Positions 30,263 to 32,556 of a DNA stretch of 64,000 nt are shown here, piece after piece. Location of the stretch: NCBI RefSeq assembly GCF_027941915.1, contig NZ_CP116009.1, positions 62,001 through 126,000 on the forward strand. The letters are read 5' to 3'. The position numbers and the translations under genes were made by a program. Origin of the DNA: Ramlibacter tataouinensis. Lineage in GTDB: Bacteria > Pseudomonadota > Gammaproteobacteria > Burkholderiales > Burkholderiaceae_C. The notes under the pieces were generated by a model that worked only from the letters and a program-made list of their open reading frames with translations, was not told the origin of the DNA and did not search any database. How positions within the stretch are numbered: position 1 is the first letter of the stretch; the number at the start of each line of letters is the position of its first letter.

Positions 30263-31174
30263 TCAGTGCCGGTGCCCCCACAGCAGGAAGGCGTCGCGCC
30301 CTTCCACCGCCAGGTGCACTTCGGCGCCGACCGGCAGCGCCACCTTGGTGGGCACGTGGCCGAACGGCAGGCCCGTGAACACGGGCGCGCGCACCTGGGT
30401 GCGCAGCCAGTCCACGACCGTCTTGAGCTTGAAACCGCGGTCGTGCGGGGCCGGCTTGTAGTTGGTGAAGTGGCCGAAGACGATGGCCTTCTGCTGCCCG
30501 AGCACCCCGGCGTACAGCAGTTGCGTCAGCATGCGCTCGACCCGGTAGGGATGTTCGTGCACGTCCTCGATGAACAGGATGCCGCCCTTGATGGCCGGCA
30601 GCCAGGGCGTGCCGGCCAGCCCCGCCAGGATCGCCAGGTTGCCGCCCCACAGCGTGCCGTGCACCGGGCGCATGGCGTCGACCCGCTCGGCCGCGGGCAG
30701 CTGCCAGCCGGCGCCCTCGCCCTGCCCGCTGAGCAGGTCGTCGAAGCAGGCCTGCATGATCTCGTCGGCCCCGCCCTCGGGGCCGAAGTCCTCGCCCATC
30801 GCCGGGCCGGCCCAGGTCACGGCGCCGGTCTTCGCCAGCAGCGCGGCCTGCAGGGCGGTGAAGTCGCTCAGCCCGACCCAGTTCGTGCCCTTGGCCACCG
30901 ACTTGGCGATCGCCTTGTACGGCAGGCGCGGCAGCAACCGCGTCAGGCCGTAGCCGCCGCGCGTGATCAGCGCGATGTCGGCGCCGCTGGCGGCGGCCCG
31001 GCCGATGGCGGCCAGCCGGGTGTCGTCGTCGCCGGCAAAGCGCATGTGGACGGCGAAGGCGGCGGGGTCGACCTCGACCTCGTGTCCCATCGCTTTCAGC
31101 CGCGCGATGCCGCGTCGCACGGCGGCCTTGTCGCGAACGGCGCTGGAGGGGGAATAGACGTAGATGTGGCTCAT
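30263..31174 (-). CDS. LD-carboxypeptidase (peptidase family S66)
   Basis: A 303-residue serine peptidase that trims the terminal D-alanine from tetrapeptide muropeptides during cell-wall recycling; family members also include microcin-immunity enzymes. The nucleophile is the Ser in GLSDFTALQAAL, the Glu of the triad is in FIEDVHEHPYRVERM, and the His is in GHVPTKVALPVG. There is no signal peptide, as expected for the cytoplasmic recycling enzyme. The start at 31174 overlaps the stop of the tadA-dehalogenase fusion (ATGA), so both are translated from one message. Confidence 0.9.
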   Translation of the reverse strand: MSHIYVYSPSSAVRDKAAVRRGIARLKAMGHEVEVDPAAFAVHMRFAGDDDTRLAAIGRAAASGADIALITRGGYGLTRLLPRLPYKAIAKSVAKGTNWVGLSDFTALQAALLAKTGAVTWAGPAMGEDFGPEGGADEIMQACFDDLLSGQGEGAGWQLPAAERVDAMRPVHGTLWGGNLAILAGLAGTPWLPAIKGGILFIEDVHEHPYRVERMLTQLLYAGVLGQQKAIVFGHFTNYKPAPHDRGFKLKTVVDWLRTQVRAPVFTGLPFGHVPTKVALPVGAEVHLAVEGRDAFLLWGHRH

Positions 31175-32556
31175 GAGGCGTGGAAGTATCCCACCGCCCT
31201 TTTCGCCACCGCCTCGCCGTGCTCCTGCACGAAGTGCCCGCCCTGCGCCACGACCATGGGTTCGGGGCAGCCGCGGATCTGCGTGCGCAATTCGTTCATC
31301 ACCGGAACGCCCAGCACGGGGTCCTGGGCGCCGATCGCCATGAAGCTGCGGCCCTGCCACTCGCCGCGCCAGAAGTCGCGCGCGCGCCGCGACAGCTCGG
31401 CGCCGTCGGCCGCCGGCGAGTCCGGCACCATCGGCGGAAAGGCGCGCAGCGCCGCCCGGTGGCCCCGGTCCGGGAAGGGCGCGTCGTAGGCGGCGCATTC
31501 CGGCAGCGACAGCTGCGGGTTGCCGCGGGCGAACAGGCGGCCGACGTCGAACTCCGGGTGCTTCGCGCACATCTCGCGCCAGGCCAGGAAACCGGGACTG
31601 AGCGGGGTGTCGCCCGTGCCCAGCAGGGTGTTCATCACCAGCAGGCCGCGGTAGCGCTGCGGCGCCTCCATCGGCAGCGTCAGGCCGAGCAGCCCGCCCC
31701 AGTCCTGCACCACCAGCACCACGTTGCGCAGGTCGAGGCGCTCGACGAATTCGAGCAGCACCTGCCGATGCCAGCCGAAGCGGTGGAAGGCGTCCTTTTT
31801 CGGCTTGTCGCTCTTGCCGAAGCCGACCAGGTCCGGCGCCACCACCCGGTCGCCCGCTGCCAGGAACACCGGGATCATTTTCCGGTACAGGTAGCTCCAC
31901 GACGGATTGCCGTGCAGGCACAGCCAGGTCAGCGGCGCCTCGCGCGGGCCCTCGTCCAGGAAATGCAGGCGCAGGCCGGCGAGCGACGGCAGGTCGCTCA
32001 GGTAGTGGGGTGCCCAGGGGTAGTCCGGCAGGCCGGCGAAGCGATCGTCGGGCGTGCGCAGCGCGTCCTCGCGCAGGGGCTGGCCATTGGCGCGGGCCTC
32101 CTGCCGGCGCTGCAGGAAGAAACCGGACAGCCTGCGGCTGCAGTCGTCTCCCAGCACGCCGCCGTGCACCTGGGTGCGGTGGTTCAGGCGGCGCTCGGCG
32201 AACAGGTCCACCACCGAGCCGGCCGCGCCCGCCTTCGGATCGGCGGCGCCGTAGACCACCCGCGCCAGCCGGGCGTGCAGCATGGCGCCGCTGCACATGG
32301 CGCAGGGCTCCAGCGTGACGAACAGTTCGCAGCCGTCGAGGCGGTAGTTGCCGACCGCCGCGGCCGCCTCGCGCAAGGCGACGATCTCGGCGTGGGCGGT
32401 CGGATCGTGACCCGCGATCGGCCGGTTGTAGCCGCGGCCGATCACCTGGCCGTCGCGCACCACCACGGCGCCGATCGGCACCTCGCCGGCCTGCGCGGCC
32501 AGCGCGGCCTGCTCGAGGGCCGCTTGCATGAAGGCGGCGTCCTGCCCGGCGTCCAT
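31171..32556 (-). CDS. tadA: tRNA adenosine deaminase TadA fused to a haloalkane dehalogenase
   Basis: A 461-residue fusion. Residues 1 to about 150 are TadA, which converts A34 to inosine in tRNA-Arg: zinc ligands His55, Cys85 and Cys88, and proton-shuttling Glu57 (TAHAE, EPCAMC). Residues from about 165 on are an alpha/beta hydrolase very like haloalkane dehalogenase subfamily I (DhlA): oxyanion HGNPSWSYLYRKMIPVF, nucleophile Asp285 next to Trp286 in VVQDWGG, cap Trp326 in FLAWREM, acid Asp412 and His441 in GGHFVQEHGE. Both Trp residues that bind the halide in DhlA are therefore present. No frame break separates the parts. It lies 14 bases after paiB and overlaps the LD-carboxypeptidase start. 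Confidence 0.9.
   Translation of the reverse strand: MDAGQDAAFMQAALEQAALAAQAGEVPIGAVVVRDGQVIGRGYNRPIAGHDPTAHAEIVALREAAAAVGNYRLDGCELFVTLEPCAMCSGAMLHARLARVVYGAADPKAGAAGSVVDLFAERRLNHRTQVHGGVLGDDCSRRLSGFFLQRRQEARANGQPLREDALRTPDDRFAGLPDYPWAPHYLSDLPSLAGLRLHFLDEGPREAPLTWLCLHGNPSWSYLYRKMIPVFLAAGDRVVAPDLVGFGKSDKPKKDAFHRFGWHRQVLLEFVERLDLRNVVLVVQDWGGLLGLTLPMEAPQRYRGLLVMNTLLGTGDTPLSPGFLAWREMCAKHPEFDVGRLFARGNPQLSLPECAAYDAPFPDRGHRAALRAFPPMVPDSPAADGAELSRRARDFWRGEWQGRSFMAIGAQDPVLGVPVMNELRTQIRGCPEPMVVAQGGHFVQEHGEAVAKRAVGYFHAS

Follow-up and report, generated by a model that had tools for sequence, protein, structure and literature searches.

TadA is essential in E. coli, and haloalkane dehalogenases (HLDs) have been studied as detoxification enzymes, although their natural roles are, to our knowledge, mostly unclear. 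In the 64,000-nucleotide stretch of Ramlibacter tataouinensis DNA analysed here (the window; NZ_CP116009.1, positions 62,001 to 126,000), both are joined in one uninterrupted chain encoded by a tadA-hld fusion gene. A preliminary description of the window had noticed this chain, which is confirmed; it lies on the minus strand, which that description had left unstated. The HLD half is complete in the window species, and about half of its fused relatives have lost the catalytic residues. Because of this loss, catalysis does not appear to be what keeps the fold in place. The chain thus combines a predicted TadA with a likely active HLD, and we give about even weight to the reading that the part surviving in dead relatives serves TadA in cis, as a non-catalytic element that contacts tRNA or stabilises the enzyme.

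The TadA half matches NCBIfam model NF008113 over residues 6–158 with 198.5 bits (curated equivalog cut-off 150), and E. coli TadA (PDB 1z3a) matches it at 3.8e-48. Like known TadAs (NF008113; PDB 1z3a and 2b3j), it has the full domain, the zinc ligands and the catalytic Glu, with the H-x-E and C-x-x-C zinc site formed by H55, E57, C85 and C88. In contrast to them, it is followed by a C-terminal HLD of about 300 amino acids; most of the unfused TadA frames read end at about 180–240 amino acids. In the genome, a single 4.47 Mb contig, one tRNA-Arg(ACG) gene was found, located by pattern and then by ARAGORN on the locus, and the window protein is the sole TadA-level match. The second genome match to the query (33% over residues 6–106, in a 365-amino-acid open frame) probably represents RibD. 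From these features, deamination of A34 in tRNA-Arg(ACG) to inosine is the predicted activity of the TadA half. In Bacillus subtilis, the TadA counterpart is reported to be dispensable (PMC10454642).

The HLD half matches NF002043/PRK00870 over residues 164–459 with 325.5 bits (curated subfamily cut-off 265). The nearest solved HLD is 2xt0 (DppA, 5.9e-117), with 7avr (DpaA) also near and 1b6g (DhlA) at 5.9e-94; all three, like the fused HLD, belong to subfamily I. With them the window HLD shares the nucleophile, the pair of halide-binding Trp, the acid, the base, the cap region and the whole length. D285, W286, W326, D412 and H441 align with 50 standalone HLDs, all of which keep these five residues, and the complete DhlA-type set had been placed correctly at these positions. 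Compared with free subfamily-I HLDs, the window HLD follows TadA in the same chain and has a fusion-specific linker, K253/K254 and G365; furthermore, many of its fused relatives are catalytically dead. From its residues, the HLD half of the window species is likely an active dehalogenase.

In the samples searched, the fusion was seen in two families of Burkholderiales. All 61 genomes of a first sample had some match, and most of the 37 belonging to the window's genus match over both halves. In the window's family, 170 of 299 genomes match at E 1e-70 or better, and among the matches listed for them 12 genomes show the HLD half only. When the remaining 129 genomes were re-searched at 1e-35, 70/80 and 46/49 matched, and the loci read from them are mostly TadA alone. 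In a second Burkholderiales family (f3), four of five genomes have the fusion and the fifth has TadA alone. No fusion beyond these two families was found in 300 genomes sampled from the order (at E 1e-65), 369 from the class and 398 from the phylum (both at E 1e-70, a threshold below which a very eroded fusion could fall); outside both families only HLD-only or TadA-only matches were seen. A fusion outside Burkholderiales was rejected, as none occurs in the class and phylum samples, where no match beyond the family begins before residue 149. The search across the order that had been proposed earlier thus shows a fusion widespread in the window's family and present in f3, but seen nowhere else in the order sample.

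Among named genomes, 80 loci were retained out of at least 529 confirmed ones. They comprise 73 fusions (56 intact, 3 partial and 14 dead), four of which have frames reaching the edge of the sequence retrieved, and 7 loci with the HLD alone, of which two do the same. By record titles, the matches listed include intact fusions in Acidovorax, Curvibacter, Hydrogenophaga, Ottowia, Rhodoferax, Polaromonas, Limnohabitans, Caenimonas, Comamonas and Ramlibacter, and dead ones in Rhodoferax, Polaromonas, Acidovorax, Curvibacter, Extensimonas and Variovorax soli. The same fusion type was also seen in records titled Alphaproteobacteria, Sulfuritalea, Pantoea and Akkermansia (L350, L352, L371 and L392), which are probably mixed bins or mislabelled assemblies.

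Reading 296 loci gave 255 TadA frames. In 187 of them the chain continues for over 150 residues past TadA, and 187/187 retain the zinc site. These represent 180 distinct fused proteins from as many genomes, 176 in the window's family and 4 in f3. The set is not random, since it holds most of the listed matches of the first and 299-genome samples and part of the weaker-threshold ones. Of the 180 proteins, 89 have all five HLD residues, 10 have three or four, and 81 have two or fewer. Most of the 81 dead domains also lack the cap, the acid and the histidine. Lacking the catalytic pentad of subfamily-I HLDs, they were not filed as dehalogenases. Loss of halide-binding residues in close relatives, which the preliminary description had raised, therefore holds for about half of the fused relatives but not for the window protein, which keeps them all.

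The dead rows come from 45 genera and the 85 intact rows of the window's family from 37, with 9 genera holding both. On a quick 246-row TadA tree (150 columns, many weak branches), explaining the intact state takes 38 changes and explaining the dead state takes 33; well supported branches require a minimum of 7 and 6 of these, respectively. The presence of the fusion needs 2 changes on the same tree, and grouping the 66 unfused rows is not rejected (p 0.376). Because changes between intact and dead are many and changes of fusion state few, the tree indicates that catalytic sites were lost time and again within fusions already in place. Half-dead HLDs that keep the acid and base occur in L112, L113 and L119 (g43) and in L071 and L075 (g152), where the Asp nucleophile (GLWDH) or the first halide-binding Trp (DDWDH) is missing; they are possible intermediates in decay.

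What is retained in the dead domains includes residues that belong to the fusion. K253, G365 and the PLRxDA linker are retained in dead domains and are found in 0 of 50 standalone HLDs. Eight sites are identical in 81/81 dead domains, and P362 and G365, in the motif beyond the lost cap, are kept in 77/81. An intact HLD elsewhere in the genome, compensating for the dead one, was rejected. The 75 of the 81 dead genomes that come from the family sample give one match each at E 1e-70, a search that would miss more distant HLDs, and G139, G294 and G345 give one match each at 1e-35; of G006, G029 and G030, the first two have an HLD-like gene (41–43% identical).

These patterns are consistent with an HLD fold that became a module of TadA. 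In an ancestor of the family, a dehalogenase gene downstream of tadA would have been joined to it when the stop codon of tadA disappeared. Once fused, the fold would have acquired the PLRxDALRTP linker, the two lysines of the GFGKSDKPKK loop and G365 in PFPDxGH, after which catalysis could go while the domain stayed, and it would have been lost many times. The fusion is rarely undone, likely because TadA came to rely on the HLD fold. The linker, the GFGKSDKPKK loop and the PFPDxG motif persist in almost every fusion of the window's family and are the best candidate contacts to tRNA or to the TadA dimer. A fuller version is tentative and, in our judgement, somewhat short of an even chance: the HLD fold would be a working part of the tRNA editor that outlives its own catalysis, with the loop and linker aiding tRNA-Arg(ACG) binding or the dimer, the pairing would have arisen twice in Burkholderiales, and some intact species would produce a free dehalogenase from an internal start alongside the fusion. 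Capture of a pseudoenzyme domain by another enzyme is a general concept, and here too a dead fold is kept in cis in fused relatives. In contrast to that general case, intact and dead versions coexist within genera, and the change is traceable.

Several findings weigh against a module role. The f3 fusions are without K253, G365 and the linker, and TadA is unfused in 66 rows of the window's family. The HLD half was apparently lost within a fused genus in L184 (G216, near a contig end), and in L090 (G128) a stop falls about 110 residues into the dead HLD half. Selection on the dead domains is relaxed, with a ratio of nonsynonymous to synonymous substitution rates (dN/dS) of 0.34, and of 0.45 after residue 300, versus 0.19 for their TadA, and single pairs reach 0.85 upstream of residue 300 and 1.02 downstream of it. 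Purifying selection acts on the entire HLD of intact lineages (0.18–0.23), where catalysis probably matters. The residues that persist are for the most part ancestral to HLD-I, and the pattern could partly be slow decay. The rows share ancestry and are not independent, the charge shift is modest, and the model of a dead domain was folded with intact relatives in the alignment, which biases its fold. L296 (G139:C1:2167300-2173300), counted as dead, has a C-terminal part of about 420 amino acids after TadA that blastp does not match to the HLD half at 1e-5 and that is possibly a very eroded, regrown remnant.

The strongest competitor, though we consider it unlikely, is a bifunctional enzyme, in which a useful dehalogenase is expressed steadily with a housekeeping gene and its catalytic loss elsewhere is the ordinary loss of an unneeded activity. 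It agrees with the 89 proteins that keep all five residues and with the HLD of intact lineages evolving as slowly as TadA (median dN/dS 0.18 and 0.23 versus 0.24; 268, 267 and 268 within-genus pairs). It also agrees with the junction, where an in-frame ATG with a Shine-Dalgarno match of at least 4 bases is present in 28/89 intact fusions (24/85 in the window's family and 4/4 in f3) versus 0/81 dead and 0/10 partial ones, as if a free dehalogenase were also made. Such a start fits a second, free product in some species. Seven further intact fusions have the ATG alone, and in eleven control windows ATG with Shine-Dalgarno occurs in at most 9/89 intact fusions, save 13/89 where a Met is invariant. 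When GTG and TTG are counted too, junction starts are found in 39/89 intact and 16/81 dead fusions, and the contrast is sharp for ATG only. Moreover, after correction for kinship, the link of the ATG to the intact state rests on 6 supported independent intact/dead pairs with a median p of 0.5, which are too few. The bifunctional enzyme also gives no account of why dead domains keep about 200 residues, fusion-specific ones included, instead of being deleted.

The window gene itself has no internal start, which further weakens the bifunctional explanation. No in-frame ATG, GTG or TTG exists in residues 140–200, and separate translation of the HLD from this gene was rejected. Because the junction CAGGAGG lacks a start codon, the HLD of the window species is probably made solely as part of the fusion. 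The independent start for the dehalogenase half that had been considered earlier is found in relatives but not in the window. A scan for sigma-70-like promoters over 31000–33300 found none, and shuffled sequences likewise gave none, so this result says little.

It is improbable that the fused domain is a passenger without a role, tolerated by TadA and eroding slowly. The elevated dN/dS of the dead domains, the variable C-terminal ends of the fused proteins, and the truncated (G128) and lost (G216) copies are in its favour, but the eight invariant sites, the conservation of P362 and G365 beyond the lost cap, and the persistence of K253 and G365, specific to fusions of the window's family, argue against it. 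Less probable still is an HLD half acting on a tRNA- or nucleotide-linked substrate rather than a haloalkane, as a second chemistry coupled to inosine-34. An HLD joined to an RNA enzyme, probably twice, and a basic loop specific to the window family's fusion point in this direction. However, its five catalytic residues do not differ from those of ordinary HLDs, and lineages have repeatedly lost them without losing TadA. An odd natural substrate, which the preliminary description had offered, is thus not the best account of why the domain stays, as 81 of the 180 fused proteins have two or fewer of these residues. Two genes joined by an assembly or sequencing error, with a stop hidden between the halves, can be dismissed, since, even though single assemblies can show a broken frame in the fusion gene (two frames in G014, a stop in G128), open fused frames are found in 180 genomes, one per species and the window's included, and full-length relatives of the 461-amino-acid fusion, up to 88% identical, exist elsewhere.

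Two separate fusions in Burkholderiales, one in the window's family and one in f3, are favoured but not proven. The closest standalone relatives of the fused HLD are three HLDs of the same order (L120, L121 and L145), which are 68–69% identical to it; they are separate genes with no TadA frame in the stretch examined, and they have no K253 or G365. A careful 64-row HLD tree was built from 44 of the 50 standalones, leaving out six long or divergent ones, together with the 4 f3 fusions and 16 of the 85 intact ones in the window's family. In this tree the fusions of the window's family are joined with L120, L121 and L145 (100/99), the f3 fusions lie in the other half (split 99/98), and a single origin is rejected (p-AU, approximately unbiased test, 0.006). 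In contrast, a quick 139-row HLD tree did not reject a single origin (p 0.56), and the one-origin tree scored higher. In a 48-row TadA tree, the f3 fusions group with unfused f3 TadA (98/97), but the data do not reject a single clade holding every fusion (p 0.11). The HLD half of f3 opens with M-x-D/G-V-L-R-T-P after a purine-rich stretch, like the starts of standalone HLDs, which fits a lost tadA stop.

Here a haloalkane dehalogenase is fixed to an RNA enzyme, and intact, half-dead and dead versions stand side by side within genera. Because of this coexistence, the TadA-HLD series offers a natural system in which the passage from enzyme to structural part can be followed. The open-access literature searched contained no paper on the TadA-HLD pair, and among the matches listed the proteins are mostly named TadA, with one record named putative bifunctional haloalkane dehalogenase. 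EnzymeMiner 2.0 describes a use case in which sequences with additional domains are excluded (PMC13355053). The fusion may have escaped notice partly because enzyme mining, as in that use case, can leave out multi-domain proteins.

The coordinates are given in Table 1. The fusion frame runs from the ATG at 32556 to the TGA at 31173-31171, and the plus-strand translation of the region is interrupted by a stop. The gene order paiB, tadA-hld, LD-carboxypeptidase is as described before, and the three genes probably form one operon because of the ATGA stop/start overlap and the 14-base gap between paiB and the fusion ATG.

Table 1. Features of the tadA-hld locus in the window (residues are those of the fusion protein)
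Feature	Position	Strand	Remark
tadA-hld fusion gene	31171..32556	-	461 amino acids; sole TadA-level and sole HLD match in the genome at E 0.001
TadA domain, residues 5-158	32083..32544	-	zinc site H55/E57/C85/C88; NF008113 above cut-off
Shine-Dalgarno-like CAGGAGG at junction	32097..32103	-	no in-frame ATG/GTG/TTG codon in residues 140-200
Linker PLREDALRTP, residues 160-169	32050..32079	-	conserved in fusions of the window's family, HLD intact or dead
Haloalkane dehalogenase domain, subfamily I, residues 164-459	31180..32067	-	NF002043 above cut-off; PDB 2xt0, 7avr, 1b6g
DLVGFGKSDKPKK loop, residues 242-254	31795..31833	-	K253 (and, almost to the same degree, K254) specific to fusions of the window's family and retained where the HLD is dead
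Nucleophile elbow VVQDWGG (D285, W286)	31693..31713	-	
Cap W326, second halide-binding Trp	31579..31581	-	
APFPDRGH motif after cap, residues 359-366	31459..31482	-	G365 specific to fusions of the window's family
Catalytic acid D412	31321..31323	-	
Catalytic base H441	31234..31236	-	
LD-carboxypeptidase (Peptidase_S66)	30263..31174	-	ATG overlaps the stop of the fusion gene (ATGA)
paiB-like flavin mononucleotide (FMN)-binding protein	32571..33191	-	directly upstream; ends 14 bases before the fusion ATG

Elsewhere in the window, a PIN-like protein (34884-35300, minus strand) follows a Phd-like protein (35287-35598, minus strand) between guaA and guaB. Judged by eye from the list of open reading frames, this pair (34884-35598, minus strand) resembles a VapBC-type toxin-antitoxin system.
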